A DNA stretch of 37,062 nucleotides from a virus. Position numbers and translations under genes: made by a program. Positions 8,521-25,974 of this stretch are shown here, piece after piece (positions within the stretch are counted from its first letter, which is position 1; each line of letters begins with the position of its first letter). The notes beneath the pieces were generated by a model. It was not told the DNA's origin and searched no databases. It saw only the letters and a program-made list of their open reading frames with translations. The stretch lies in IMG/VR virus record IMGVR_UViG_3300046001_003196, positions 1-37,062 of that record. One strand, given 5' to 3'.

Positions 8521-9687
8521 ATGTGGCCATTCTTACCAAAAAAATGTGATTGTTCAGAAACTCCTACTAATCCAGGAACTTCATGTAATCCTAGTGGTCT
8601 TACCACTAATGATTTAGTATATGATGGTTCAGCTGGAGTATGTTCTAATGTTGCAACAGGAATGACAGCATCAGAAGCTTTTCAACAATTAGATTATTTT
8701 TTATGTAGCATAGAGTTAACACAATACATATTAAATCAAATTGAAAATAATCCAGAAGAATATCCTGAGTTTATTACATTAGTAAATGGTGCAATTAATT
8801 GTAGTACAATAGATGATTGTGGACCACCTCCACCACCAACAACTACAACCACGTCTTCTTCTACTAGTACATCAACAACTAGTACAACTAGTACAAGCTC
8901 TACTACTACCACAACCACAACTGTTGCTGAAGCATGTCATGTGTATGATTTAACAGCAATTACTGATAATGGTAACTGGATAGCAGAATTATGTTTTGGA
9001 GGCGTTGCAGAAGGTATTTTAGCTTTTGCTGGAAATACTGTCACTACTCCTTGTATTATAAATACATCATTAGTATTAAATGGAATAACTGCTGTTACAA
9101 ATTTTGTTGATTGTTCTATAACAACTACAACTACATCTAGTACGTCAACTTCTACATCAACAACAACATCAACTACTACAACAATATGTCCTTGTACATA
9201 TATTGATATAACTATTTTTAGATCATATATAGGTTTAAGTGATACAGGAAGTGCAGATGTACAATATGAAAATTGTAATGGAGATACTGTTATACAAACT
9301 TATACAGAAGAAGGAACTTATAATATTTGTAGTCAAGATATAAATTCTATAATAGGATCATATGTAAGGTTTGGTATTACATACATTGTTCCAGTAACTC
9401 CTTTTGATAGTGAGGAACTTTGCTGTATACCAACAACAACTACAACATCTACTACTGAAGAACTCTCTTGTAGAAGCTTTGTAGTATTTGCTAACTTCTC
9501 TACTCCAGCAGCATTTTCATATGACCCTTGTGGTGGTGGTGAGTCAATTAACATAACATTGCAAAATCCAGAAGGAGAGTTTCCTTCAGCTGTAGTTGTA
9601 TGTTGTGCTCCCTTAACTGTTCCTTTTGGTACTAATATTGATAATGGAAAGATTGACTTTACTCTAACTGGTGACTGTAGTGTTTAA
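8521..9687 (+). CDS. Modular poly-Thr adhesin/fibre protein with three domains
   Basis: 388 residues built as anchor, linker, domain A, linker, domain B, linker, domain C. The anchor (about 1-100) contains CDCSETP and ends CSTIDDC; it is similar to the anchor of the gene at 9716. A Pro-then-Thr/Ser linker follows (107-134). Domain A begins CHVYDLT and ends VDCS; domain B begins CPCTYIDI and ends ELCC; domain C begins CRSFVVFA and ends GDCSV. Each domain starts and ends next to Cys, so a disulphide could clamp it. Domain A resembles the single domain of the 9716 gene, and B that of the 10283 gene. A surface fibre or head-fibre role in host attachment is inferred from modular design and context; no sugar-binding fold can be proven here. 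Confidence 0.6.
   Translation: MWPFLPKKCDCSETPTNPGTSCNPSGLTTNDLVYDGSAGVCSNVATGMTASEAFQQLDYFLCSIELTQYILNQIENNPEEYPEFITLVNGAINCSTIDDCGPPPPPTTTTTSSSTSTSTTSTTSTSSTTTTTTTVAEACHVYDLTAITDNGNWIAELCFGGVAEGILAFAGNTVTTPCIINTSLVLNGITAVTNFVDCSITTTTTSSTSTSTSTTTSTTTTICPCTYIDITIFRSYIGLSDTGSADVQYENCNGDTVIQTYTEEGTYNICSQDINSIIGSYVRFGITYIVPVTPFDSEELCCIPTTTTTSTTEELSCRSFVVFANFSTPAAFSYDPCGGGESINITLQNPEGEFPSAVVVCCAPLTVPFGTNIDNGKIDFTLTGDCSV
8839..8922 (+). repeat. Poly-ACN linker tract (Thr/Ser)
   Basis: 28 codons of almost only ACA, ACT, ACC, ACG, TCN and AGT encoding a Thr/Ser linker between the anchor and domain A. Mixed synonymous codons keep it from being a pure microsatellite. Confidence 0.85.
9121..9183 (+). 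repeat. Poly-ACN linker tract (Thr/Ser)
   Basis: 21 Thr/Ser codons joining domains A and B of the same protein. Similar shorter tracts lie at 9433-9456, 10013-10033, 10244-10267 and 10514-10534 in this and the next two genes. Confidence 0.85.
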
Positions 9688-9715
9688 TAATTAATTTAAA
9701 ATAAAAATAATAAAA

Positions 9716-10270
9716 ATGTCTTGTACAAATAACATTAATATAAATTGTGGATGTGAAAATAATCCATGTGGATGTAAAACTTCATCAGATGAAGTTGTAT
9801 ACCAAGGACCTGATTTATCATGTACAGGTGTTTCAAATTGTGACACACTTACAGAAGTAATACAATCAATAGATGGATTTATTTGTAGTCCAGAAATGGT
9901 ACAAACAATAATCAATAACATTTTAAATAACACATCCTTATATAATCAGTTTACAACTATTGTAAATAATACAGTAGAGTGTCAAACAGTATGGGATTGT
10001 ATTAACGCACAAACCACAACTACCACTACAACTGCTATACCTACTTGTTCAGTATACAAATTAGGAACTACAGGTCCTAGTGGATTCCCTGGTGATAGTG
10101 ATTGGTCAGCTACAGATTGTAATACAGGTCTTTCAGTTGATGGAACAATTACATTCCCTACTAGTGTTAACACAGGATGTATAATTGATAGTTCATTAGT
10201 GTTAGGAGTAAAAGTAGAAATACTTGAAAATAATGCATGTCCTACTACTACAACTACTACCACTACTTAA
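9716..10270 (+). CDS. Short poly-Thr adhesin: anchor plus domain A, Thr tail
   Basis: 184 residues. The anchor (about 1-97) has CGCENNPCGC near the start and the pattern 'DLSCTGVSNCDTLTEVIQSI', paralogous to the anchor of the 8521 gene ('QQLDYFLCSIE' corresponds to 'QSIDGFICSPE'). A poly-Thr linker follows (about 100-106), then one domain (CSVYKLGTTG to ENNACP), related to domain A of the 8521 gene, and the protein ends in eight Thr residues. Its single TAA stop is in frame with the next gene, only four codons before that gene's ATG. It looks like a shorter paralogue produced by duplication, perhaps of the same particle appendage. The A-rich sequence AATAATAAAA precedes the start. Confidence 0.6.
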   Translation: MSCTNNININCGCENNPCGCKTSSDEVVYQGPDLSCTGVSNCDTLTEVIQSIDGFICSPEMVQTIINNILNNTSLYNQFTTIVNNTVECQTVWDCINAQTTTTTTTAIPTCSVYKLGTTGPSGFPGDSDWSATDCNTGLSVDGTITFPTSVNTGCIIDSSLVLGVKVEILENNACPTTTTTTTT

Positions 10271-10282
10271 AAACCAAATAAT

Positions 10283-10873
10283 ATGACAGTATTAATAACA
10301 TTAGTAATAGCAGGAACAGACTCTGGTCCTTTTGATCTCTATTCAAATAATGATGGATATGTATCTGCATTTGAATCAGGTGTAAGCAGAGCTGCATTAA
10401 TAGCAGGATATGCATCATCTCTTGTTCCTGATTATACAGCTATAATCAGAGTGAAATCAAATGGAGAACTTTGTACAAATTATATTGATATTCCTGTAAT
10501 AGAAATACCAAGCACAACTACTACTACCACAACTGCAGCTTGTGGATGTTTTGAAATAGAAACTAACATTAGTCAAACAGACTTAGATGACGCTACTGGA
10601 AATACTAATCCTGCAGATGATAATTTAATTAGTTTTTTCTTTTTAGATTGTAATGGTGTATTTAGCCAAGCATCTTATACAGTGGCTGGTACATATTATT
10701 CAACAGACGTATGTACAAATGATCCAGCAAGTATATTGAATTTCAGATACATGAAAAATGATATACTTATAACTACTGTTGTTTCAACAGCATCACTATC
10801 TGTTATATGTTGTACGACCACAACTACTAGTACAAGTTCTTCTACAACAACCACCACAACTACAACACCATAA
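10283..10873 (+). CDS. GPF-domain protein with Cys-clamped domain B and Thr tail
   Basis: 196 residues. The N-terminal domain (1-73) contains AGTDSGPFDLY (residues 10-20) and 'AIIRVKSNGELCTNYIDI', a small beta domain also found at the N-terminus of the 20537 gene (AGANAGPF). A short Thr linker (about 78-84) leads to a Cys-bracketed domain (CGCFEIE to VICC) related to domain B of the 8521 gene, then an 18-residue Thr/Ser tail ending TTP. Its frame continues that of the upstream gene across one TAA. Two strong terminator hairpins follow. A fibre or decoration role is inferred; the GPF domain may be an assembly module. Confidence 0.6.
   Translation: MTVLITLVIAGTDSGPFDLYSNNDGYVSAFESGVSRAALIAGYASSLVPDYTAIIRVKSNGELCTNYIDIPVIEIPSTTTTTTTAACGCFEIETNISQTDLDDATGNTNPADDNLISFFFLDCNGVFSQASYTVAGTYYSTDVCTNDPASILNFRYMKNDILITTVVSTASLSVICCTTTTTSTSSSTTTTTTTTP
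10814..10867 (+). repeat. Poly-ACN C-terminal tract
   Basis: 18 Thr/Ser codons immediately before the final Pro and stop, encoding the C-terminal tail of the GPF-domain protein. Confidence 0.85.
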
Positions 10874-10880
10874 TATAATT

Positions 10881-11048: not shown

Positions 11049-12263
11049 ATGTCTGAAAATCAAAGCTTATTAATTCAATTGCAAGAATTACTGACACACA
11101 AAAAAAGTAAGAAGTTTTATGCTGAAAGACTTGGAATAAGTGAATTTGAAGTGAATGAACTATTGAAAGAACTTAGAGAAAAAGACAACAATCAACACGA
11201 ACTAAAAAACTACACAGAAGAACGAAAGGTAAATATTGAGAGAGGTACAATAGAGAGTACAATTGTATCTGACTTTGATCCTAAAGATGATGTTGAATTA
11301 GCTCATCTACACAAGATAAACTTAGATAAATATATTATAACCAATTACTGGTCTAAGATGTTACCAAGTGGGAAGTTTACTTCCTCAATCTTCTCAAAAA
11401 GAAAAGAAGCAAAAGATTACTCTCCTGAAGACTTTGCTAAGTTTTTACAAAATTACAAATCCAACTACATACCTGAACCAAATCCTACAATTCAACATGC
11501 TAAAACAATAGATGTTGAATTATCATTATCTGATTACCATTTAGCAAAGAGACATGTTGATGGAGATAATTCAGTAGCTGATAGAACTGTTAGATATTTT
11601 ACTGCAGCAACTTCTCTTATATATGATGTTAAAGCAATATACGACATAAACACTATTGTATTCCCTATATCAAACGATTTCTTTCACACTGATAACTATC
11701 AACATCAAACTACAAATGGTACTCCACAGGACACTATAATGGATTATCATTCTGAATATGAATTAGGGTTTGAGATATTAGTAGGTACAATTCAAATGAT
11801 GAAAAAAGTTTGTAAAGAAGTACATGTAGTTTTAGTACAAGGTAATCATGATAGAACTAAATCTTATTATCTTGCACATGCATTAGAAGTTTATTTTAAA
11901 AAAGATGCTAATATATATTTCAATAGAGATCATGGTGTAGTAAAAGCTGTAGTTTTAGGAGATACATTTATTGGTTATCATCATGGTAATTGTAAGATTG
12001 AGGATTTGCCTTTATTGTTTGCAACTCATCCAGAATTTAGTCAAGCATTTGGTAACGCTAAATATAGAGAGATACACACAGGTGATAAACATCATTACAT
12101 GGCTAAAGAAGTGAAGGGTGTAAGAATACAACAAATGCCTAGTTTATCAGGAACTGATAGATGGCACTTAGATAATAACTATGTACACAGTGTACGTGCA
12201 GCTCTTGCTTTAGTATATGATAAAGATAAAGGTAAGATATGTGAATTTGAATATAGAATATAA
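11049..12263 (+). CDS. Metallophosphoesterase with N-terminal helix-turn-helix
   Basis: 404 residues. Residues about 15-45 (KKSKKFYAERLGISEFEVNE) look like a helix-turn-helix. The C-terminal two thirds carry the calcineurin-like metallophosphoesterase motifs in order: D162-Y-H164, N209-D210, G265-N-H-D268, the H311-H312 pair, and H343-T-G-D-K-H-H349. The family hydrolyses phosphodiesters or phosphomonoesters using two metal ions; the substrate cannot be told here. Motif II is ND rather than the usual GD, but the metal-binding Asp is kept. It is the first gene after the double terminator, followed 6 bases later by a ring-like gene, so it is transcribed with tail genes. It could be a virion-borne or late DNA- or nucleotide-processing enzyme; the HTH favours a DNA partner. 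Confidence 0.8.
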   Translation: MSENQSLLIQLQELLTHKKSKKFYAERLGISEFEVNELLKELREKDNNQHELKNYTEERKVNIERGTIESTIVSDFDPKDDVELAHLHKINLDKYIITNYWSKMLPSGKFTSSIFSKRKEAKDYSPEDFAKFLQNYKSNYIPEPNPTIQHAKTIDVELSLSDYHLAKRHVDGDNSVADRTVRYFTAATSLIYDVKAIYDINTIVFPISNDFFHTDNYQHQTTNGTPQDTIMDYHSEYELGFEILVGTIQMMKKVCKEVHVVLVQGNHDRTKSYYLAHALEVYFKKDANIYFNRDHGVVKAVVLGDTFIGYHHGNCKIEDLPLLFATHPEFSQAFGNAKYREIHTGDKHHYMAKEVKGVRIQQMPSLSGTDRWHLDNNYVHSVRAALALVYDKDKGKICEFEYRI

Positions 12264-12269
12264 AACAAT

Positions 12270-12995
12270 ATGTCAACATTAAGAAAATTAGTATCAGATG
12301 TACGTTCAGTACATAAACTTTTATCAACTGATAGCCTTATTACAGATAGAGCTATTGCTTCTGAAATAAGAAACAATTCTTTATTGCTTATTAAGAGAGA
12401 AACAAATCTTAGAAAGCTTTGGGCTACAGACACATTATTTACAACAATACCTTGTTTAGAAATGTGTGAAGTTCCTCTTTCTGAATGTTGTGATTATGTA
12501 GATGAGTGTACAATATCTAGAAGTAGAGAAAAGATTCCACGTATATCAGAAGGTAATTACCAATATGTAATACAAGGAGTTTATTCTATTAATGCATTAG
12601 GAGGTAAAGGGAAGAAGTTAAAAGAAATATCTGTCAACAGATATGCAAATCTATTAAGACTTCCTATTATTAAAAATGAGGCATACTTTTGGATTACTAA
12701 TGGATATTTATATGTAAACAATCCATTACTACAAGCAGTTAGGTTTGTAGCGTTCTTTGAAGAAGATGTTAGTAATGATATATTATATCCAGAATGTGGA
12801 TGTGGAAAAGAATACTCATTAGAAGATATATGTATTAATCCATTAGATAAAGAGTTTGCATGTCCAGGATATCTAGAACAACCTGTATTACAAATGACAT
12901 CACAAAAACTTTTATCTACATATTTTAATATTAAAACAGATCAAAGTCAAGATGGCGTAGATGGGCAAGCACCTAACTCAAAACCAACTAGTTAA
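12270..12995 (+). CDS. Putative tail ring / structural protein, crAss-like
   Basis: 241 residues. The N-terminal segment (LLSTDSLITDRAIASEIRNN, about 17-36) followed by 'LLIKRETNLRKLWATDTLFT' and 'IPCLEMCEVPLSECC' (about 60-74) matches a pattern I associate with a conserved structural protein encoded just upstream of the IHF-like and tubular tail genes in Bacteroidota podoviruses. A second Cys cluster (CGCGKEYSLEDIC, about 177-189) could bind metal. The last 20 residues are polar and probably disordered (DGVDGQAPNSKPTS). It is likely a ring component of the portal-tail assembly, inferred from pattern and position. The next gene starts 3 bases after the stop. Confidence 0.6.
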   Translation: MSTLRKLVSDVRSVHKLLSTDSLITDRAIASEIRNNSLLLIKRETNLRKLWATDTLFTTIPCLEMCEVPLSECCDYVDECTISRSREKIPRISEGNYQYVIQGVYSINALGGKGKKLKEISVNRYANLLRLPIIKNEAYFWITNGYLYVNNPLLQAVRFVAFFEEDVSNDILYPECGCGKEYSLEDICINPLDKEFACPGYLEQPVLQMTSQKLLSTYFNIKTDQSQDGVDGQAPNSKPTS

Positions 12996-13489: not shown

Positions 13490-14458
13490 ATGAGTTACTA
13501 CTATAAATATAATTTCGTAAGTCCTGAACCAGTCTATGCTACTGTCAAAGAAGAATTAAAGTCTTATTTTGATACAGGTGCAGTAGATGATCTTTTATTT
13601 CCAACGTACCTTGACAAGTGTCTACAGAAACTTGGAAGAACAACTTATGTAATCTCTGAAGAAGTTCTATATATAGATGACTTTCAAGCAAGACTTCCAG
13701 ATAACTTTTATGCTGCAAGAGAAGTTTGGATGTTAGTTGAGATTCCTCAACTTCCATATCAATCAGCTAATTCATTATATACACAAGCAGCATCTTCTAC
13801 TACAATACAAGTTTCTCCTGTAACATCAGGAGGAGTTCCTTGTACAAATTTAGAATGCACAACAGGATGTCCTACATGTATGCCAGAATTAATCCAAGCT
13901 GTATATAAAACTAATCATCAAACAACAAGATCATTTAGACAATCATATCTTCTTAAACCAGGTAACATATCTGCTAGAAGTAATTGTTCTGTAGATTATT
14001 CAAATGATTTAGAATTATATGGACAGCATTCTGTTGTAAATTCAAATTTTCCAGGAGCAGCTGTTTATGATTCATTTGACATTAGAGACAATAAAATTGT
14101 AACTAATTTTAGAAGTGCAACAATACAATTATTATTTTATGCTACAGAGTATGATGAAGTTGGTAGTCAATTGATTCCTGACAACTATCGTATTAGAGAG
14201 TACATAGAAGCATTCATTAAATACAAAGTATTTGAGATGCTTACAAATCAAACTAATGATGAAACCTTTAATCAGTTACAACAAAAACTTGTATATTACA
14301 AACAGTTGTATGATGAAGCATTTATTATGGCAAGCATTGAAGTTAAGAAACAAGATGTTTACACAAAACAAAGAAGAATAAGACAAGATTTAAATAGATT
14401 TAATATGTACGAACTTCCAAATACGACTAATCGTTATGGAAGAAGAAGAAATAATTAA
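13490..14458 (+). CDS. Tail tubular protein (crAss/P22 gp4-like)
   Basis: 322 residues. The start 'VKEELKSYFDTGAVDDLLFP' (about 20-39) and 'YLDKCLQKLGRTTYVI' (about 40-55), then 'IDDFQARLPDNFYAAREVWM' (about 64-83), is a pattern of the tail tubular adaptor of crAss-like and related podoviruses: helical N-terminal domain, Cys-containing beta insert (CTTGCPTC region, about 124-133) and a C-terminal helical part ending in a very basic tail (RYGRRRNN). Such proteins link the portal to the tail tube or muzzle, which agrees with the stabilisation protein gene starting 2 bases downstream. The C-terminal basic tail may contact DNA. Confidence 0.75.
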   Translation: MSYYYKYNFVSPEPVYATVKEELKSYFDTGAVDDLLFPTYLDKCLQKLGRTTYVISEEVLYIDDFQARLPDNFYAAREVWMLVEIPQLPYQSANSLYTQAASSTTIQVSPVTSGGVPCTNLECTTGCPTCMPELIQAVYKTNHQTTRSFRQSYLLKPGNISARSNCSVDYSNDLELYGQHSVVNSNFPGAAVYDSFDIRDNKIVTNFRSATIQLLFYATEYDEVGSQLIPDNYRIREYIEAFIKYKVFEMLTNQTNDETFNQLQQKLVYYKQLYDEAFIMASIEVKKQDVYTKQRRIRQDLNRFNMYELPNTTNRYGRRRNN

Positions 14459-14460
14459 TC

Positions 14461-17400
14461 ATGGCAGATAATACATCTCAAGACAATACACCACAAGGGA
14501 ACATTAAATCAGAATACAATGTTGCTTCAACAGGTTTAAATTTAGATAACAGTGTTAATCAGATAGCTAAAGGACAATTAACTTATGCATTAAACGCATC
14601 AGTTGAAAACTTTGATGCTTCTTCAGTTAGTTATCAAAATGAACCAGGCAATGAATTTTGTATTGAGTTTCCTGCACAGTTTATTTTAATAGGAACACAT
14701 TTTATTGTTGAGCAAAGTAAACACATATTTTTTATTACTAATCCTGAAACAGGAGCATGTCAAATAGGATATATGGAGAATAATGATTGTGTTTATAAAA
14801 TATTAGTTAGTGCACCATGTCTTGCTTTTGATATAAATTATCCAATACATAAAGTTGTACATAAAATTACAAATTGTACAACAGAATTATATTGGACAGA
14901 TGGTTTAAATCCAAGAAGATATTTAGACATAAATAATATTCCTTATATATTACAAATTGATTCTGATCTTTGTGATCCTTCATTTACTGATCAACTTGAT
15001 TGTAATCAATTAAAATTACAACCTAATTTTAATATTCCTGAGTTAACAATAGTTGATGTTAGAAATGGTGGAGATCTTATCTCAGGCACATATCAATTTG
15101 CTATACAGTATTGTGATGCATCAGGTAATGAATACACATCTTATTATTCAGTTACTAATCCAACACCTATTGCTGATATACAAATAGTCACTCCTAATTT
15201 TAATTATGCTGTTGGTAAATCTATTGTTGTTAATATTAATAACTTAGATGCTACAGGACAGTTTCAGTATTTTAATCTTGCTGTAATCAAAACAATAAAT
15301 AACATTCCTTCTGTTGAGTTAGTGGGAACATATTTTATCGATGAAGCAAATAAAAATATCATATATACAGGACAAAACCAAACACAAATAAGATTAACTA
15401 TAAATGATATATTCTTAAAATATCCTTATTATGAAATAGCACAAGATCTAACATCTGTACAAGACATATTAATATGGGATAATTTAACATCTATAGATAG
15501 AATTAATTATCAATCTATTGCTAGTCAGATTACACTTCAATGGCAAACATATAAACTTCCTGCTACAGAAAACTATTCAGATGAACTCAATGCTACAAAT
15601 TTACGTGGATACATGCGTGATGAGGTGTATGCATTTGAGATTGTATTCTTATTGAGAAATGGAAAACAAACAGATGGTTTTCATATTCCTGGAAGAGAAA
15701 AAAATTCTAATGAAGCATATCCAGATGTTCTTGATACTAATGAAGATTTTATAGGAGAAGGACCTTCTGCTCCTTATTGGAAGATATATAACACAGCATC
15801 TGTAATTGGACCTGCTGTAGGAGATCCAATTGGAAATGCAACACCATACGAATATGGTGAATTTGCTTATTGGGAATCAGAAGATGTTTACCCATGCAAC
15901 ATAGATCTTTGGGGAGACTTAGCTGATCAACCTATTAGACATCATAAGTTTCCAGATGTGTTAGTTTCCCCTCATTATGAATCAGCTTTATTTGCTGGTC
16001 CAGGAAGTGCATTAGTTATGCAGAACGACGCTGTATTTCCTATTGGTGTAATAATAGATACAACTCAAGTTTTAAATTATATTAATTCTTCTAATTTAAC
16101 AAATAGTCAAAAGGCAGATATTGTAGGATATAAAATAATCAGAGGAGACAGAGGTACAAATAAATCTGTTATTGCTAAAGGTATTCTTAGAAATGTAGGA
16201 GAGTATGAAAGAGAAGAACAAAAGTTTTATTTTCCAAATTATCCATATAATGATTTAAATGTAGATCCATTTTTAAATGAAAATAATAATGCTTGGTCAT
16301 TAGTTTCAGAACCATTTTTAGTAAGATGGTTATCAAATGATGTAGTTGATGGAGTAGATTTAGGATACGCTACATGTGAATATACAGATGTTAACTCTAA
16401 CAAACTTACAACTAAAAAGATTTATCCTACTGGAGGTCCTACTAATCAAACTACTGGTGGTACTGGAGTATATGAATTTTGCTCTATTACAAGACCTATA
16501 TCAAAAGGAACTGGAAAACTTAGAGTGGGTCCTGCTAATTATGATGTTTGGGACATATACAGTGACTCTGGTCTTTTTACATGTGGACATAGAGCTGGAT
16601 GGAATGATCCATTTAATGATGATAATATTGCAGGTACAGTATTTAGAGAACAGCATGTATATAATTTAGGAGCAATTGGTGATGGAGCAACTTATACAAT
16701 TGTTGTTGTTGAAGATGGTGAAGGTCCTAGAACTACAAGATGTGGAACAATTTGGTTAATAATTGGTACTGTTAAGTGTTGTGAAGCAAGGTCATCTATA
16801 AGACCTCCTAAAGTGTTTGCATTAGGAGAAGTAGAAACTCCTCCAGGAATAGTTTTAGGTGCAGTAGCAACTGTTGGTGGTGCATTTCCTAATTTCATAG
16901 ATCAAAATAGACTATTTAGTAGAAGATCTTCATTAAACTGTAAAGAAGAAACTCCTCTAGCAGGTGTAGAAAATAAAAACAATCATTTACAGATATTTAA
17001 TTCTCCTGAGACATCATTTGGACAACCATTCTTAGGTGATGTATTAAAACTTGAGAACGTAATGTTTGGTGCTGGTAAAGCACATTTTGTTCAAGTAAAG
17101 AGTAATGCTAAATATAAATTGCTTTCTAAAGAAGCACAACAAGATGCTTTAGAAAGTGCAAATAGAATAGGAAACATTACAAGTGACTTTAATGCCACTG
17201 CTATGTTTACAGCATATCAGGCATATTTAACTATTTATGTAAATGGTATCACAAGAAAGAACTATGCTTATTCATATAACTCTATTGCTAATTATGATTA
17301 TTCTGAATCTATTCCAAATGATCTTGGAATTAAACAAAGAGATATTGATTATACACAATACTTAATTCCAGCTGTACAGTCTGTAGGAGACATCAATGGA

Positions 17401-20400
17401 ATAAGTATGAATAATTTTCAAAGAGAATCTTCTGTTTTTATTAGAACAATAGAAAATAGAAACACTTTACCAGTATCAGGATTTTCTTTTCCAAGTGATA
17501 CTTTCCCTATGATTTCTACAGGAGTAACTGATAAATCAAAACAAACTATTAGTAGTAGTTTTGTATGTGCTACACCAGCACAAGAAACTGATATTAGTGT
17601 AGTTTCTTATTATGCTTCTATGAAGAATATGTTTGTAAACCAATGGGGGCAAATATATTCATATGATACAGTTGATACAGGATTTCAAACAAATGTTAAT
17701 TCTTCTGCAATTAAAACAATATTTGGTGGAGATACATTTATATCTAGATTTGCATTCAAAACAAAACTTCCTTTCTTTATAGACAATAGAGTTAATGCTC
17801 CTGATGATTCAGATGTATTCTATGATGAGATTGGTAACATTGCCTATCCAAAATACTGGCACTCTGCTAGAAGTATATTAGATAACTATCAAATTAGTTC
17901 TCCTAATAATCCAGTAATTGCTAATATTATTTCTTATAAAGCACATAACTTTGATTGTCCTAGTGATCCTGCTAGTTATCCTCCTATACCAAATGCTGAT
18001 GTTCAAGCATTAACAGGTCTTAGTGGCACATATAGAACTTACTATGATGGATATTTTTATTTATTTGCATATGGAATTCCTAACTTCTATTGTGAAACAA
18101 GTTATAACTTAGATCTTAGACAAGCGTTTAATAATAAAGAAGGAGACTTTTGGCCTCATGTAACAACAGGTATTCCTGATGATTGGGTTCAAGAAAGTTA
18201 TGTATCTATAGCTAATGATAATACATATACATATAATGTAACATTCTCTAAACAAAATAAGGAAAATACGTTTACACATCTTCCTCCAGATTGGACAACA
18301 CAACTGTGTTATACAAACTTTCCATTTAGAGCAATCTATTCTGATACACAAAATCAAAACGCTGATGTTAGAGTTAACAACTGGTTAATCTATCGTCCTA
18401 TAGCACAATATGATTTTCCTCAGAATTATGGAAATCTAACATCATTAGATGGTATCCAAAATAAAGCTGTGTTGGCTAGATTTGAAAATAAATCATTGTT
18501 GTATAACACAATGCTTACAATCAATACAAGTAATCCACAAGCTGCCTATCTTGGTAACGATACATTATTTAAATCATCTCCTCCAATTGATTTTGCTGAA
18601 ACAGATCTTGGATATGTAGGAAGTCAGAATAAGTTCTTATTAAAAATTCCACAAGGACAAATAACTGTAGATGCTAAAAGAGGACAAATATTTCTTGTTA
18701 ATAGTAATCAAGCTGAAGATCTTTCTGCATTTGGCTCTGGATTGAATAGATTCTTTACAGACCATTTGGCATTTGAAATACTTAGATACTTTCCTAATAA
18801 AGAAGTTATAGTTAATAATGAAAGAATTGTAATTCCTGGAGTTAATATAGATAATAATTTTACAGGAGTTGGTCTTCATGGAGTATATGATTCTAAATAT
18901 GATAGAATTATAATTACTAAATTGGATTACATTCCAATAGATCCATATGTAAAATATAATTCTACTACTAAACAATTCTATGTAGAAGAAACAATAAATG
19001 ATATTGTATTTACAACACAAGTTTATTTAACAGACCCAGAATATTTCTGTAATAAGTCATGGACATTATCATTTAACTTTAATACTAAAAGTTGGATTTC
19101 TTTTCATTCATATATACCTAATTGGTATATAGCTGAAAACAATTTCTTTTATTCTGGTATAAATGGATGTTGTTCAGACATTGAAGGAGAATTTGAAGCA
19201 TTGGTAGGAGATACAAATAAACTTGTAACAACTACCACTACACAAGTTCCTGAAAGAACAACAAGTACAACAACTACTGTTACAACAATTAATTGTAATT
19301 TAGCTGGAATAATTTTCCAAACATCTTGTGAATTATCAGGAGATGCAATCATAACAGTTCCACCATCAACAACTACTACTGTGTGCACAAGACCAAGTAA
19401 TTTAAACTCTTTCACTTTTGCATCTGGTTATCAGATAGGATCAAATCCTGCTGTAGATTCTACAGTAAGTTTCAGTGCAGTTTGTGAAGCAATGTTAATC
19501 GTAGCTAGTCCTCAAGACAATTTAGTTATAACTTTATTTAATTTTACTACAGAAGAATTAAGTATTGGTCAAGTAGTATATTATGGTGACGATACTAATG
19601 ATTGTACTCTTGTTAGTGATGGATGGTACTACACTTCAGAATCACAATTTGATCAATTTGCTTATTATGTTGAATCAGGAGTAATTACAGAAATAGAATA
19701 TTGTATTTGTCTAACAACAACTACATCAACAACAATTATTAGTGTTCCTGAATGTTGTGGTATATTATTTAGTTCAGGTAATAATATTTATTATTCAAAT
19801 GACAATACTAATATGACAGAATTAAATGTTCCAGGATATAGTTCTTCTTTTGGAATAGCTATGACATCTAATTATTTATGGAGTGTAACAACACAATTCT
19901 CAATGTGGGATATTACATTGAGTCCATTCAGTGCAACATTTAATACAACTATACCATTCCCAGGAACATTCACAACTTCTTCAGGAATAGTTGCATTGAA
20001 CAATACAACACTAGTTGCAATAGATGATTCTGCTACACCAGAAGATGTTGTAGAACTAACACTTGATTGCAATGTAAATCCTCCTGTATTTACTTCTACA
20101 GTTCAATTTAGTTTACAAACAGATAGAACTGCCATAGGTAATATGTTATATACAGTTGCAAGTAAACTTATTGTAATAAATCAAGATACAGTAACATCTG
20201 ATTATTACTTGACACAATATGATTATGCTACAGGCGTAATTGAGTTAGATTTAAACATTGGCTCTAGTATTATTCCAACATCTATATTTCAATGTGAGTG
20301 TTTAATATACATTACAGATAATAGTAATAATGTATATGTAGTGAATCCAGATAATGCAACGCCATTGCTTAATGCAAATATCACTAGTCAAATTATTGAT

Positions 20401-20532
20401 TCAGCAGCACAGGTAGTTTCTTGTACATCAACTTCTTTAATAGAACCAACTACAACAACTACGTCATCATCTAGTACTACTACATCAACATCAACATCTA
20501 GTACAACGACTACATCAACAACAACTCCTTAA
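14461..20532 (+). CDS. Tail stabilisation (muzzle) protein body fused to adhesin cassette
   Basis: 2023 residues. Residues 1-1587 match the large tail stabilisation or muzzle protein of crAss-like phages: a start with 'TGLNLDNSVNQIAKGQLTYA', YWTDGLNPRRYL (144-155), NSPETSFGQP (847-856), and KSWISFHSYIPNWY (1543-1556), all beta-rich. Residues 1588-2023 are different: poly-Thr linkers, short Cys-bracketed domains, a propeller-like region beginning CCGILFSSGNNIYY (about 1770) with repeated strand patterns, and a Thr/Ser tail. The usual C-terminal part of the muzzle family is missing here and appears in the next gene. The protein probably forms the distal tail nozzle, with the cassette exposed to bind the host surface. 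It has no transmembrane segment. Confidence 0.75.
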   Translation: MADNTSQDNTPQGNIKSEYNVASTGLNLDNSVNQIAKGQLTYALNASVENFDASSVSYQNEPGNEFCIEFPAQFILIGTHFIVEQSKHIFFITNPETGACQIGYMENNDCVYKILVSAPCLAFDINYPIHKVVHKITNCTTELYWTDGLNPRRYLDINNIPYILQIDSDLCDPSFTDQLDCNQLKLQPNFNIPELTIVDVRNGGDLISGTYQFAIQYCDASGNEYTSYYSVTNPTPIADIQIVTPNFNYAVGKSIVVNINNLDATGQFQYFNLAVIKTINNIPSVELVGTYFIDEANKNIIYTGQNQTQIRLTINDIFLKYPYYEIAQDLTSVQDILIWDNLTSIDRINYQSIASQITLQWQTYKLPATENYSDELNATNLRGYMRDEVYAFEIVFLLRNGKQTDGFHIPGREKNSNEAYPDVLDTNEDFIGEGPSAPYWKIYNTASVIGPAVGDPIGNATPYEYGEFAYWESEDVYPCNIDLWGDLADQPIRHHKFPDVLVSPHYESALFAGPGSALVMQNDAVFPIGVIIDTTQVLNYINSSNLTNSQKADIVGYKIIRGDRGTNKSVIAKGILRNVGEYEREEQKFYFPNYPYNDLNVDPFLNENNNAWSLVSEPFLVRWLSNDVVDGVDLGYATCEYTDVNSNKLTTKKIYPTGGPTNQTTGGTGVYEFCSITRPISKGTGKLRVGPANYDVWDIYSDSGLFTCGHRAGWNDPFNDDNIAGTVFREQHVYNLGAIGDGATYTIVVVEDGEGPRTTRCGTIWLIIGTVKCCEARSSIRPPKVFALGEVETPPGIVLGAVATVGGAFPNFIDQNRLFSRRSSLNCKEETPLAGVENKNNHLQIFNSPETSFGQPFLGDVLKLENVMFGAGKAHFVQVKSNAKYKLLSKEAQQDALESANRIGNITSDFNATAMFTAYQAYLTIYVNGITRKNYAYSYNSIANYDYSESIPNDLGIKQRDIDYTQYLIPAVQSVGDINGISMNNFQRESSVFIRTIENRNTLPVSGFSFPSDTFPMISTGVTDKSKQTISSSFVCATPAQETDISVVSYYASMKNMFVNQWGQIYSYDTVDTGFQTNVNSSAIKTIFGGDTFISRFAFKTKLPFFIDNRVNAPDDSDVFYDEIGNIAYPKYWHSARSILDNYQISSPNNPVIANIISYKAHNFDCPSDPASYPPIPNADVQALTGLSGTYRTYYDGYFYLFAYGIPNFYCETSYNLDLRQAFNNKEGDFWPHVTTGIPDDWVQESYVSIANDNTYTYNVTFSKQNKENTFTHLPPDWTTQLCYTNFPFRAIYSDTQNQNADVRVNNWLIYRPIAQYDFPQNYGNLTSLDGIQNKAVLARFENKSLLYNTMLTINTSNPQAAYLGNDTLFKSSPPIDFAETDLGYVGSQNKFLLKIPQGQITVDAKRGQIFLVNSNQAEDLSAFGSGLNRFFTDHLAFEILRYFPNKEVIVNNERIVIPGVNIDNNFTGVGLHGVYDSKYDRIIITKLDYIPIDPYVKYNSTTKQFYVEETINDIVFTTQVYLTDPEYFCNKSWTLSFNFNTKSWISFHSYIPNWYIAENNFFYSGINGCCSDIEGEFEALVGDTNKLVTTTTTQVPERTTSTTTTVTTINCNLAGIIFQTSCELSGDAIITVPPSTTTTVCTRPSNLNSFTFASGYQIGSNPAVDSTVSFSAVCEAMLIVASPQDNLVITLFNFTTEELSIGQVVYYGDDTNDCTLVSDGWYYTSESQFDQFAYYVESGVITEIEYCICLTTTTSTTIISVPECCGILFSSGNNIYYSNDNTNMTELNVPGYSSSFGIAMTSNYLWSVTTQFSMWDITLSPFSATFNTTIPFPGTFTTSSGIVALNNTTLVAIDDSATPEDVVELTLDCNVNPPVFTSTVQFSLQTDRTAIGNMLYTVASKLIVINQDTVTSDYYLTQYDYATGVIELDLNIGSSIIPTSIFQCECLIYITDNSNNVYVVNPDNATPLLNANITSQIIDSAAQVVSCTSTSLIEPTTTTTSSSSTTTSTSTSSTTTTSTTTP
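19228..19380 (+). repeat. Poly-ACN tracts at the muzzle-adhesin junction
   Basis: Two Thr-rich tracts (19228-19290 and 19366-19380) on either side of a short Cys domain (CNLAGIIFQTSC). They mark where the muzzle body ends and the adhesin modules start. Confidence 0.75.
20449..20526 (+). repeat. Poly-ACN C-terminal tract of the muzzle-adhesin gene
   Basis: 26 Thr/Ser codons (ACA, ACT, ACG, TCA, TCT, AGT) directly before the last Pro and TAA. The next gene, with a GPF domain, starts 4 bases after the stop. Confidence 0.85.
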
Positions 20533-20536
20533 AGCT

Positions 20537-21403
20537 ATGTCAAAAACTATAATTGTAAAATTAACAAGAGCTGGTGCAAATGCTGGACCATTTACCATTA
20601 CTGATGATTTTGGGAATGTAATAGCAACTGATGTACCTAAAAAAACTCTTATTAGAGGAACTGCATTTGTTGTAAATAACGATGTATTGATATTATATCT
20701 AGAATCAACAGGGAAGTGTCCTATAAAAAAAGCATTTCCTTTACAATCATTTACAATTAATGATGTTGCAGATTCAACATTTATACAAACAACAACAGCT
20801 TGCTTGTGGAGACATCTAACTAATATACAATTATATAATTCTTATTATGGAAGAATAGATCAATACATTATTGAATATCCTTTCTCTTATCAATATCAAG
20901 ATGAAATCTTGCAGAATGTAAAAGACTACACTAAGGCATATGAATATCTCTCTATACCAGATGGTGTATTTAATGATAACACAAGAATAGAAACAAATAA
21001 TAAATGGTTTACACATGCTGTTCTATATAATGGACAACAGAGTTCAGGACTATTAGAACTAGTAGCTAAACCAATGAATAACTTAAAAGCATACAATCAA
21101 TATCCAATATTTAATACAAACAGTAAAACAATCACATATACAAAGAGTGATAACTTCTATCAGTATAATACATTCTGGGCTTTAGAGAAAAGTTCTCAAG
21201 TTCAATTATTTAATACGTCATGTGAAAGCATGTCAATTGATAAAGTGATTAATGAAAGCAATATGGATTATGGAATTAGAAGCTTTAAAAAATCTCCTCT
21301 AAGAGCAAAAGAATTAAAAATACGACATATTCTCAAAGACAATTGTACAACGCACTTAGTGAGCCAATTCATAATTGCTCCTGCGCAAATATCTTATAAG
21401 TAA
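20537..21403 (+). CDS. GPF domain fused to the detached muzzle C-terminal domain
   Basis: 288 residues in two parts. Residues 1-75 are the GPF-type small beta domain (AGANAGPF at 12-19), similar to the N-terminus of the 10283 gene. After a short Thr linker (QTTTA, 84-88), residues 89-288 (CLWRHLTN; then YNGQQSSGLLEL at 164-175; then 'YNTFWALEKSSQVQLF' and a Cys) resemble the C-terminal end of crAss-like tail stabilisation proteins, which typically have W-R-H, a Y-G turn, an N-x-x-Q-x-SGLL segment and a W/Cys end. So the product probably completes the muzzle fold made mainly by the upstream gene. Its stop overlaps the start of the next gene (TAATG). The split is inferred from family memory. 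Confidence 0.6.
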   Translation: MSKTIIVKLTRAGANAGPFTITDDFGNVIATDVPKKTLIRGTAFVVNNDVLILYLESTGKCPIKKAFPLQSFTINDVADSTFIQTTTACLWRHLTNIQLYNSYYGRIDQYIIEYPFSYQYQDEILQNVKDYTKAYEYLSIPDGVFNDNTRIETNNKWFTHAVLYNGQQSSGLLELVAKPMNNLKAYNQYPIFNTNSKTITYTKSDNFYQYNTFWALEKSSQVQLFNTSCESMSIDKVINESNMDYGIRSFKKSPLRAKELKIRHILKDNCTTHLVSQFIIAPAQISYK

Positions 21404-24400
21404 TGACTGGTAAAGTAAAATGCACATGTGGATGGTCATGGAACAAATCTGATTCTAGTAAGAAGGATATGTACATATGCCATGAGTGTGGAAGAGACAA
21501 TAGCAACAACATGAGAAATGGTGGATGGTTAGATTCATATGCTGATGGTGGAACAATGCAAGAACACCAAGAGAATTATAATGATTATAAAGTTTCTGCT
21601 CCTGAAGGTTTTCAAGGAACTGGATATAGCAATGTAGGTAGAGATTATTCTCCTGCATGGGGAGGACAGTTTGAAGATGGAGGAGAAATACCTATGGCTC
21701 AAAAAGGAAAAAAGTTAAAACCAATTACTACAAATGATCCTGCAGATCCTAGATTACATAAATATTTAGATAGTCTTAATCTTTACAAAGGGTATGAACT
21801 TTCTAAAAAATATAATAAACAAGGAGAATATAGTTTTCCTAATGCTCCAAAAGGAAAAGTAAAATATTCTAAATCAAATACTTTACCTCATAAATCTTAT
21901 GAAGAATATTTAAAATTTAGTAATGAATATGATAAAAGATTTAAAAAAGCATATGATAAAGGAGGGATGAATGCTGTTAATGCTGATTCTTTTTTATCTA
22001 GTAAACAAGGTAGGCAAACTTCTTTTTCTAAGAAAGAAGATCTTTATAAATATGATCCTGCTGCAAAAGCTTTAATAGACCAATATGAAAAATTATCTTT
22101 TAAAGAACCTGTAGAAACAGGATATTGGAAAACTCCTGATTTATACCATCCTACAATTAGAGATATAGGAAGTTATTATAAAGGAGCTTTTAATCCTATA
22201 TTTAAAAAACCAAATCAAGAAGTTATTTATTCTGGAAATCCAAAAGATGTTGAAAAATTAAGACAAAAACCTTATATAGCTGGAGTAACTAATCCTAAAA
22301 TACAAAAACAAGTAATATTACAAAAACCTATACAAGCAATAGAAAATAATTTACAACCAATAGGAATACAAAATGATTTTAATATAGAAGCAGATGTTCC
22401 ACAAATAAGACCTCAAGCAATAATGCCAAAGTCTTTTGATATTACATCACAAAGACAAACTATGTCTGGACCAAGTGATTATTATAATTACAATCAACAA
22501 GGTCTTAGTATAGAACAAGCATTAGAAGCTAAACGAGCAGCTGATGCATACAATCAATCTATACAGGATAAATATGGAAATAGTAAAAATCCTGAAGCTC
22601 AAGAAAGATTAAAACAATTAATGCAAGATGTAGAGCTAACTCCTAATTATCAAATGGGTGGATCTGTCTATCCAGTTAATTATGTTCCTCAAGCTCAAGA
22701 TGGTGAAAATTTAAATACACCAGAAAATTGGGAAAAATCTATAAGAAATATAGAACACCAAATTGGTAATCCTAATGAATGGTCTATTGATGGTTATAGA
22801 CAATTACAAAAACAAGTCAATGAGTATAAATTCTGGAGAGAAAATACTCCAGAAGGAAAAGCTGTTTATGATTCTCACAATGAATCAAATGAATATGTAG
22901 TTCCTCTTCCTGATCATTTAAAAATGTATAAACCTTTAAATATGCTTGAAGAAGTTACTCCTAATTATAAAAAAGTAGGAGTTGTTCCTCAAGCACAAGG
23001 TGGTTATCGAATGGGAACTTACTTTGATGAAGATGCTAGAGAAATAGAACCTAATATGATGGAAGAAACCTATGACGATTATCGTACAGCAATGGAAGGT
23101 ATGATGAAATCTAAGATGGCTACACAAGCTACATTAGGAAATAAAAGTGCACAACGTATGATGTCTAGTAATCCTTCTAAATATATATTTACAGGTAATG
23201 AAAGATTCTCTGATGGAAGTCAAGCTGAAGGTGCTGGAGCTTATGGAACTCATTATATGTCAAATAGAGATAATTATGTTTATCCTAACTTACAAGATAA
23301 TGGAGAAGGAATATTAAACTTTATACCAAATGCATCTCCTTCTGATAGAGAAGCTATGAGATTTGAAAATGCTGATGAAGCTGATTACTTTGCTAATCAT
23401 TATAAGGAAGTTGCTCCTATGATGAAAGCTAATAAAATGCAGATGGGTGGTTCTATGCCAGGAGCTGTAGGATTTACATATGCTAGAACTAAAGGTATTC
23501 CATCAGAAGGTCCATATGCAAAGAAGACACTTCCTAGTGCACAGAATGGAGGAGAGATGAGATATTATCAAAATGGATTAGATTGGAAACCAAAAGGAAT
23601 GAAAGATGGTGGATGGTTAGATGGATATGATAAAGCTGAAGAAGGTGAGAAGATAAAAATAAAAGAACGCCCAACAGAAACAGTTAGTGAAAGTACTGGT
23701 ATTGGACAAAACATGAAAATTAAATTAAATAAAAATGTAAAACATACATTAGGTGAAATTAAAAAAGGAAATAATATTGTAAAAAAACGTGGGAACTATG
23801 TAGTGACTGCTAATAATAAAGTTTTAATTCCTGTTAATAGAAAAGGGCAACAACAACAATATGTTCCTTATAAACAATTAGATCCTAAAGAAAAATTAAA
23901 CCAAGAAGAAATAAATAAAATTGCTAATTATAAAGAAGCATTAGATAAAGAAAATCTTGGTATTGGAAGTAGACCTTTAATTTATTTAGAATCACCAGAA
24001 AAAATATTAGGTGATATAGGTATTCCAGGAATGGAAACTTCTGAAGATGATAGATTACGTGCTGCTCAATTATACAATCATCCTGATAATGCTAATATGT
24101 CAATGTTAGATGTTATGTCTGATAGTTTTAACTATGGTGTTAGAAAAGTTCCAGGTGCAGCTTTGAATACAGCTCTTGCTATGATAGGAAATCCTAATGC
24201 AGGACCATTGAGAGTTATAGGTGAAGCAATGAATCCTTTACCAACGCCTTTACCAGGAAGAGGTATGAAAATAAATGCAGGGGATGATGTTGCAAGAATG
24301 GCAAAACAAGCTGATAATGTACAAGATACTTATGGATTAATTAAAGAAAAAAATAATCCTCTTCAGTTTGATTCAGAAATAAATTGGGGTAAAGAGTATT

Positions 24401-25974
24401 TTGAAAAAATACAAAATAAAGAAAAAGAACTTCAGGATTTAGTTTTTTCTAAAAAGATTACTGAAAAAGAATATTTAGAAGGAGTACCATTATATGAAAA
24501 AGAATTAGCAAAAGAATTAGGACTTGAAAATAAGTTAGGTAGTGGAAATTATGGAAAGGTATTTGAATCACCAAATGACGCATCTAAAGTAATAAAATTA
24601 GGAAATCCTATGTCAGCTGGAGGAACAGGTGCTTCAAATTGGACACCTGAACTTATAGAAAAATTAAAGTCTATAAAACAAAATGCAAATATTGCTGTTC
24701 CAGAACAAGTAGAATATTTTGAAATACCTTCTTTGTATCAAGGATATGGACCAAAGACAAAAGAAGTTATGACTATGCCTAATTTAAATCAAGTAGCTGC
24801 TGAAAATTTAAACTTAAATAAAAGAGATAGATATGCTTTATTTTTAAAACAAGCAAGACAACTTAGAGATCAAGGCATTCAACTAGATGTTAAAAATATT
24901 GAAAATTTTAAGTTTAATAAAGATAAAGGTGTTTTTGATATTTATGATATAAATCCAGGATATATTTCTAATCCTGGTTACTATATGCAAGATGTGGTAA
25001 ATAAAACAAGAGGTCCTTTATTTGAAAACATGCAATTTAAACAAGGAGGAATCATTAAAGATGATAGGGGGCAATGGGATCACCCAGGAGAGATAACAGA
25101 AATAAATTCTCCATATATAACAATGCAAGGAGTTCCTTATCCTGTTCTTGGTATATCAGATACAGGAGATACAAAACTAATGAAGCCAGGAAAGAACTAT
25201 AAGTTTAAAGGAAAGAAGGTTACAGAGTTTCCTATGGCTCAAAATGGAATAAAAACATTTTATAATGATTATATTAACTCTCCAAAGTATAAAGAAAGAT
25301 TAGAGTTACAAAATTATAATAATCCTGATAAAGTAGTATCTGATAGAAGTAAACATTTAATGAAAACAAAATTAAATACTATCAAAGATACAGGAGGATT
25401 TACAGCAAATAACACAGGATCATATTATACTCCTGAAACAAATACAGTTGATTATGATGAATTTGATTTAAAACTTTATCCAGGATCAACTTCTGAAGAT
25501 ATTAAAACTCATGAGTTATCACATGCAGTAAGTGCATTATCTCCAAGAAATAAAAGTAATTTAACTTTAAATAAAAATGAAGTAACTGAAATTAACTCAA
25601 GAAATAAAAATAAACAGGAACATGAAAAAGATCCAGAGGAAGCTAAAGCAGATATGGATGTACTTCGTTATCATTTAAAAAAAGATAAATTATATGATAC
25701 TGGTAAAGAAGAATTTACACCAGAATTATATAATGCAGCAAAGAAAAAATATAAAAATAACCAAACTATAAAAAGATTTTTTAATAGATTTTCAGATAAA
25801 GATGCTATTTATTTAATGAATAGCATTGCTCAACTTAATGATAAAGATGAGTATGTGCCTATGGCTAAGAATGGATTAAGACAAGAACAAAAAGGTTTGG
25901 TAAACTTGGATAATCTCCTTAATTTTACAAACTATAATACCCAACAACCAGGAGGCTGGTTAGATACTTTATAA
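21403..25974 (+). CDS. Giant cargo protein with zinc ribbon, kinase-like and metallopeptidase-like regions
   Basis: 1523 residues, beginning in a TAATG overlap. Residues 7-29 form a zinc ribbon (CTCGW...CHECG). A Gly-loop GSGNYGKV (1046-1053), K1065, D1162-V-K1164 with N1168, and Y-D1182-I-N-P-G match the order of protein-kinase elements, though the spacing of N1168 is one residue longer than usual. Near the C-terminus H1370-E-L-S-H1374 is an HExxH zinc motif, and E1412 or E1413 in DPEEAKAD could be the third ligand. P-M-A-Q-x-G-like motifs recur at 97, 429, 529, 711, 1277 and 1486, and GGWLD recurs at about 41, 736 and 1517. It is probably an internal, ejected multi-domain (polyvalent) protein acting on host targets; substrates are unknown. 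Confidence 0.65.
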   Translation: MTGKVKCTCGWSWNKSDSSKKDMYICHECGRDNSNNMRNGGWLDSYADGGTMQEHQENYNDYKVSAPEGFQGTGYSNVGRDYSPAWGGQFEDGGEIPMAQKGKKLKPITTNDPADPRLHKYLDSLNLYKGYELSKKYNKQGEYSFPNAPKGKVKYSKSNTLPHKSYEEYLKFSNEYDKRFKKAYDKGGMNAVNADSFLSSKQGRQTSFSKKEDLYKYDPAAKALIDQYEKLSFKEPVETGYWKTPDLYHPTIRDIGSYYKGAFNPIFKKPNQEVIYSGNPKDVEKLRQKPYIAGVTNPKIQKQVILQKPIQAIENNLQPIGIQNDFNIEADVPQIRPQAIMPKSFDITSQRQTMSGPSDYYNYNQQGLSIEQALEAKRAADAYNQSIQDKYGNSKNPEAQERLKQLMQDVELTPNYQMGGSVYPVNYVPQAQDGENLNTPENWEKSIRNIEHQIGNPNEWSIDGYRQLQKQVNEYKFWRENTPEGKAVYDSHNESNEYVVPLPDHLKMYKPLNMLEEVTPNYKKVGVVPQAQGGYRMGTYFDEDAREIEPNMMEETYDDYRTAMEGMMKSKMATQATLGNKSAQRMMSSNPSKYIFTGNERFSDGSQAEGAGAYGTHYMSNRDNYVYPNLQDNGEGILNFIPNASPSDREAMRFENADEADYFANHYKEVAPMMKANKMQMGGSMPGAVGFTYARTKGIPSEGPYAKKTLPSAQNGGEMRYYQNGLDWKPKGMKDGGWLDGYDKAEEGEKIKIKERPTETVSESTGIGQNMKIKLNKNVKHTLGEIKKGNNIVKKRGNYVVTANNKVLIPVNRKGQQQQYVPYKQLDPKEKLNQEEINKIANYKEALDKENLGIGSRPLIYLESPEKILGDIGIPGMETSEDDRLRAAQLYNHPDNANMSMLDVMSDSFNYGVRKVPGAALNTALAMIGNPNAGPLRVIGEAMNPLPTPLPGRGMKINAGDDVARMAKQADNVQDTYGLIKEKNNPLQFDSEINWGKEYFEKIQNKEKELQDLVFSKKITEKEYLEGVPLYEKELAKELGLENKLGSGNYGKVFESPNDASKVIKLGNPMSAGGTGASNWTPELIEKLKSIKQNANIAVPEQVEYFEIPSLYQGYGPKTKEVMTMPNLNQVAAENLNLNKRDRYALFLKQARQLRDQGIQLDVKNIENFKFNKDKGVFDIYDINPGYISNPGYYMQDVVNKTRGPLFENMQFKQGGIIKDDRGQWDHPGEITEINSPYITMQGVPYPVLGISDTGDTKLMKPGKNYKFKGKKVTEFPMAQNGIKTFYNDYINSPKYKERLELQNYNNPDKVVSDRSKHLMKTKLNTIKDTGGFTANNTGSYYTPETNTVDYDEFDLKLYPGSTSEDIKTHELSHAVSALSPRNKSNLTLNKNEVTEINSRNKNKQEHEKDPEEAKADMDVLRYHLKKDKLYDTGKEEFTPELYNAAKKKYKNNQTIKRFFNRFSDKDAIYLMNSIAQLNDKDEYVPMAKNGLRQEQKGLVNLDNLLNFTNYNTQQPGGWLDTL

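Follow-up and report, generated by a model that had tools for sequence, protein, structure and literature searches.

In the crAss-like phage studied here, the muzzle protein is encoded by two genes, ORF1 and ORF2, which jointly span the full length of the crAss-like muzzle family. Few known viruses match crAss-like phages in abundance, and how their tail tip recognises hosts is an open question. We analysed a window of 37,062 nt that comprises positions 1–37,062 of IMG/VR record IMGVR_UViG_3300046001_003196, one metagenomic contig representing a fragment and not a whole genome; the muzzle and ring-protein features given below lie on the + strand. ORF1 (14461–20532, 2023 aa) encodes muzzle chain 1, and ORF2 (20537–21403, 288 aa), which begins 4 nt after ORF1, encodes chain 2. 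The muzzle locus directly follows the genes for ring protein 2 (12270–12995; PF25702, 63 bits) and ring protein 1 (13490–14458; PF24228, 40 bits), the latter immediately 5′ of ORF1, an order identical to that in crAss001. The only crAss-like matches seen for the window lineage were to muzzle, ring and head proteins. A DNA repair exonuclease gene (11049–12263) lies between Thr-linker genes and the ring-protein genes.

ORF1 matches the Pfam model PF25731 (crAss_MUZ) with 124.8 bits (cut-off 27) and also phrog_37948/15100. Its muzzle core comprises residues 1–1576 (14461–19188), single-chain muzzles matching to residue ~1576, and lacks the last ~200 residues of the muzzle. Searches of Pfam, PHROG and PDB sequences with ORF2 returned no match, and a profile of its C-terminal part found nothing useful among PDB sequences. 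ORF2 residues 84–288 do have counterparts: they align with the final part of the muzzle gene of Leptolyngbya phage Lbo-JY46, of Flavobacterium phages and of a faecal phage whose record lacks annotation, and residues 87–288 (20795–21400) correspond to the ~200 residues absent from ORF1. Core and C-terminal part are contiguous in single-chain relatives: ORF1 1567 aligns with residue 1455 of the single 1654-aa Leptolyngbya phage protein and ORF2 84–288 with 1457–1654, its last residue; in FpV4, ORF1 1570 aligns with 1765 and ORF2 90–288 with 1768–1961, again the last residue; in MT837925, ORF1 1568 and ORF2 90 align with 1165 and 1175; and in csAssE-Sib, ORF1 1576 and ORF2 88 both align with 2067. 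Because the ORF1 match stops where the ORF2 match starts, the break (break B) is a single point. It is flanked by SGING-C1570-C1571-SDIEG in ORF1 and TTA-C89-LWRH in ORF2. All single-chain relatives examined carry core and C-terminal part in one chain, which the window does not.

The two flanks of break B are separated by added sequence on both chains. Chain 1 continues past the core into a Thr-linked cassette (ORF1 residues 1577–2023, 19189–20529) that ends in a Thr/Ser tail; the chain 1 stop codon, the 4-nt gap and the chain 2 ATG follow (20530–20539); and chain 2 opens with a GPF domain (ORF2 residues 1–86, 20537–20794). An earlier note, made from the sequence alone, had read the 2023-residue gene as a crAss-like muzzle body without its normal end and had located that end in the next gene behind a GPF domain. 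Both claims held, as did its description of Thr linkers, Cys-bracketed stretches and a short QTTTA linker; its placement of the break at residue 1587 held roughly, the real break being slightly earlier, in the C1570/C1571 region. Two observations would have refuted that reading, ORF2 being unrelated to the muzzle end or chain 1 being already complete; both were looked for and neither was found. The small gene after the muzzle is most probably part of the muzzle, which bears on annotation.

To establish how general the split is, we scanned viral contigs. Two scans yielded 405 stretches with ORF2 relatives and 290 with relatives of the core; further scans and removal of near-copies left 166 representatives, among them 23 single-chain, 119 two-chain and 24 three-chain muzzles. 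A scan with the Leptolyngbya muzzle returned nothing, one with the phi17:2 muzzle returned two loci, and a mixed profile (A3) reached the single-chain outgroup. A genome-collection scan for ORF2 found no relatives and hence gave no hint of the host. Break B occurs at the same turn in all 143 distinct split relatives, and this shared architecture places the split beyond chance. When core tiles were mapped to reading frames, breaks fell at only two fixed sites, with one contig excepted. In contig IMGVR 3300044522_000270 (loci L027 and L093) the muzzle is broken near residues ~630–810, possibly a third site or an assembly fault. The second fixed site, break A, corresponds to ORF1 residues ~1513–1520 (18997–19020); it is intact in the window and divides the muzzle into three chains in 24 of the 143 split relatives. 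At break A, too, a Thr linker closes the upstream chain, in some cases together with a domain, and the chain that follows starts at a Met of its own.

The chains start separately. ORF2 begins with ATG in every split relative (143/143). Of the 119 cases with ORF2 directly next to chain 1, 54 have it in relative frame +1, 40 in +2 and 25 in 0; in the other 24, 250–3,500 nt, mostly holding an extra gene, separate chain 1 from ORF2. An individual ATG for each second gene together with variable frame and spacing argues that no frameshift joins the chains. An Rfam search of the window produced no match, i.e. no self-splicing intron RNA between the pieces. In the records of 12 relatives (103–117 kb), core and C-terminal part each occur exactly once and lie in different frames, whereas three single-chain outgroup records carry both in one frame. 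With one copy of each per record and in separate frames, the missing muzzle end must come from chain 2. A hidden second copy of the C-terminal part was considered and rejected on the basis of the same 12 records.

All split representatives together with one unsplit form, L262, constitute one clade with a support of 100 in a tree of the shared parts, from which the junction columns were excluded. The split is an old trait of the whole lineage and not a recent accident; the earlier note is corrected in this respect, and its two-chain picture is extended by a third chain in some relatives and by chain ends that are probably disulfide-joined. Break B changes state twice on the tree, the second change being L262, which lies near the base of the clade. 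L262 may be ancestral, and a re-fused form remains possible. Break A changes nine times, each change being forced by strongly supported branches, which indicates that it was repeatedly gained or lost. The tree rests on a quick search and one support measure, and several outgroup branches are long, leaving the finer order there uncertain.

Structure prediction was applied to the fold around the breaks. The C-terminal part of ORF2 modelled alone reached pLDDT values of only ~35–77, weak evidence that it needs a partner; the GPF domain is predicted to be a small beta domain, with pLDDT ~80–91 over ORF2 residues 1–80. A fold search with ORF2 alone found no significant match, only weak Ig/FnIII-like ones. 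A 480-residue fragment of L262 that runs across both break sites was predicted with a pLDDT of 70, and the sole significant match in a fold search of the PDB was the crAss001 muzzle (E 2.1e-7 and 3.4e-7). In this model both break sites lie in turns between short strands, with low confidence at break B. Mapped onto crAss001 gp44 by a weak alignment, break B falls at ~1234–1237 and break A at ~1198–1200; the matches to the Pfam muzzle model reach 1220/1224, so that the model ends near break B. According to the published domain layout of gp44, residues 318–1021 hold IG2 together with the crass domain (PMC10172136). As the mapped positions exceed 1021, both breaks would lie past IG2/crass, in the C-terminal propeller/ring-joining stretch, subject to the weakness of the alignment. 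That the two chains form one joint fold, as the earlier note proposed, is a strongly supported and likely inference; neither a complex prediction nor a structure demonstrates it.

A pair of cysteines across break B supports contact between the chains. On the upstream side of the break, SG(I/L)NGCC occurs in most relatives, with SG(I/L)NGGC or a similar form in a minority; on the downstream side the sequence is T(A/G)CLWRH or TASLWRH. Among the split representatives, 119 of 143 have Cys on both sides and 24 on neither; none has it on one side only. Visual scoring of the junction sequences of the 23 single-chain forms found neither cysteine in 22 and both in L262, where they span a 12-residue loop (C-DGFTSTQQSATS-C); this brings concordance to 166 of 166 representatives. 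The pair formed by ORF1 Cys1570 (codon 19168–19170, the first Cys of the GCC motif) and ORF2 Cys89 (codon 20801–20803) ranks first among 18,900 cross-chain column pairs after background correction (z 13.2). Rank 2 is a neighbour of the same residue, and rank 3 links the SFNF strand of chain 1 with the LYN stretch of chain 2. Each Cys trait changes six times on the tree; just three independent contrasts are strongly supported, and all are concordant. Thus, the covariation is good, not final, evidence for the likely inference that the chains touch at break B and are usually joined by an interchain C1570–C89 disulfide. The disulfide cannot be required, since 24 of the 143 split representatives lack the pair. 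Cys1571 of ORF1 (19171–19173), the second Cys of the GCC motif, is kept in most relatives that lost the first Cys together with ORF2 Cys89.

The sequence inserted at break B is hypervariable. A run of at least five Thr/Ser residues occurs within 60 residues after the core in 142 of 143 relatives. Median identities, taken over 655 pairs whose cores are at least 83% identical, are 0.86 for the core, 0.82 for the C-terminal part, 0.56 for the GPF domain and 0.30 for the cassette. Correlation of distances with those of the core discriminates poorly (C-terminal part, r 0.52; GPF domain, 0.55; cassette, 0.32), and only the cassette stands apart. The window cassette matches no known domain in Pfam. 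In relatives, site-A cassettes and intervening genes contain Fib_succ_major (8/34), fn3 and galactose-binding-like domains, and a DUF5122 propeller makes up one site-B cassette. The cassette probably binds the cell surface; this is inferred and no binding data exist, and the earlier note's receptor-binding modules on the muzzle are not shown. In relatives such as L129, L132 and L107, chain 1 stops 20–43 residues past the core, with little beyond a Thr tail. The break persists in L129 and L132 with no more than a short Thr tail on chain 1, so display is not its sole possible use.

The GPF domain is not restricted to the muzzle: it opens separate Thr-linker genes, and of its matches 94 lie 5′ of the muzzle and 22 in between the muzzle chains. 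The window has one such gene (10283–10873, + strand), consisting of a GPF domain (profile match 36.8 bits, E 1.6e-9), Thr linker, variable domain and Thr tail. The Thr-linker gene just before it (9716–10270, + strand) has a terminal Thr tail, as does ORF1 before the ATG-GPF of ORF2. With a Thr tail followed by ATG-GPF at both places, break B resembles an adhesin-type gene boundary inside the muzzle. The Thr linkers at 8837–9193, 10806–10877, 19226–19285 and 20429–20533 have imperfect DNA repeats in common, 60–75% identical to a reference copy; such repeats would permit recombination between linkers, a possibility and not proof. The earlier idea that an adhesin cassette was recombined into the gene is supported by the hypervariability of the insert and its likeness to this neighbouring boundary; the route itself is inferred. 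In the window, the Thr-linker genes form a three-gene array (8521–10873), of which two genes end in bare Thr tails, and the Cys-bracketed domains of the array resemble those of the muzzle cassette.

The crAss001 muzzle gp44 (PDB 7QOK, 7QOL; PMC10172136) belongs to the same family and follows the ring proteins in the same gene order. It is one chain of 1371 residues with short turns at both sites, whereas the window lineage has one or both chain breaks there. The published length variation of muzzles concerns the crass and IG2 domains (PMC10172136) and thus differs in place from these breaks. The single-chain muzzles of Lbo-JY46, phi17:2 (Cellulophaga), csAssE-Sib and FpV4 (Flavobacterium) show contiguous homology to core and C-terminal part; each is one gene without a cassette and without the Cys pair at the turn. 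Intron- and intein-split crAss-like genes (PMC7886860) are likewise conserved phage genes in several frames; their pieces, however, are rejoined, whereas the muzzle chains have their own starts and extra domains. Fib_succ_major, listed among the target domains of diversity-generating retroelements (PMC4159848), is common to these targets and some muzzle cassettes. A reverse transcriptase was absent from all 14 relatives' records searched, ten of which exceed 100 kb, and retroelement diversification of the cassettes was rejected on this ground. Searches of the open-licence literature found no report of a split muzzle.

We consider the following explanation likely. The muzzle would consist of two separately translated chains, chain 1 folding as the body and chain 2 completing its end, with the break in a turn between two short strands of the muzzle C-terminal part. 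The new termini would lie side by side on the assembled muzzle, where the Cys staple of most members would confer near single-chain behaviour while leaving the tip open; the free end of chain 1 would present the cassette and that of chain 2 the GPF domain. Should the muzzle be hexameric, as it is in crAss001, it would carry six projecting cassettes, probably in contact with the cell surface. As to origin, recombination via Thr linkers most likely placed an adhesin-type gene boundary (Thr tail, stop, ATG, GPF) in a loop that the Cys pair had already closed; this route is inferred, and it implies a sequence of steps that can be tested: first the Cys pair spanning the loop, next the break, last the exchange of cassettes.

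Several rivals deserve consideration. ORF2 may derive from the muzzle end and now be an independent tail protein, chain 1 alone serving as a shortened muzzle. In favour, ORF2 has its own start and an added N-terminal domain, and a Pfam model that stops near break B would allow the last part to be a separable domain. However, the 12 long records contain no further copy of the C-terminal part, this part is almost as conserved as the core, all single-chain relatives keep it, and cross-chain coevolution centres on the break; we regard this alternative as unlikely. Still less credible is that frameshifting, RNA splicing or protein splicing rejoins the pieces into one polypeptide. Some crAss-like groups are rich in self-splicing introns and inteins (PMC7886860), but the mixed frames, the extra genes in most of the 24 spaced cases, the ATG and GPF domain in all 143 split relatives and the absence of an Rfam match in the window speak against it.

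An assembly error or a decaying gene could be suspected because the window is a single metagenomic contig; this is all but excluded by the 143 distinct relatives, drawn from many samples, that share the break and have near-invariant residues on either flank. It remains possible that the two-chain muzzle is real and the cassette does not bind a receptor, acting instead in surface shielding, as a tether or as a tolerated insertion. The lack of a known domain in the window cassette and the chains that end in a bare Thr tail fit this view; against it, hypervariable modular cassettes are typical of binding modules, as are the Fib_succ_major, fn3 and galactose-binding-like domains found at site A and in intervening genes of relatives.

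On the two-chain reading, which we prefer, the muzzle is a natural example of an essential structural protein whose chain has been stably split: across a large clade, the gate protein carries a fast-changing module and is maintained as two or three chains. A bolder interpretation, toward which we lean slightly less than away, treats the muzzle as an evolved plug-in display scaffold, in which two turns were opened into chain breaks, with a disulfide staple at one and recurrent gain or loss at the other, and whole adhesin genes are swapped by Thr-linker recombination with the fold undisturbed. Were this true, part of host recognition would reside on the gate, which would couple binding to ejection.

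Downstream of the muzzle, 21403–25974 encodes a 1523-aa protein with a Cys-rich start and a weak tail-protein match. It contains repeated GGWLD and MAQ(K/N)G motifs, with GGWLDTL at its extreme end.
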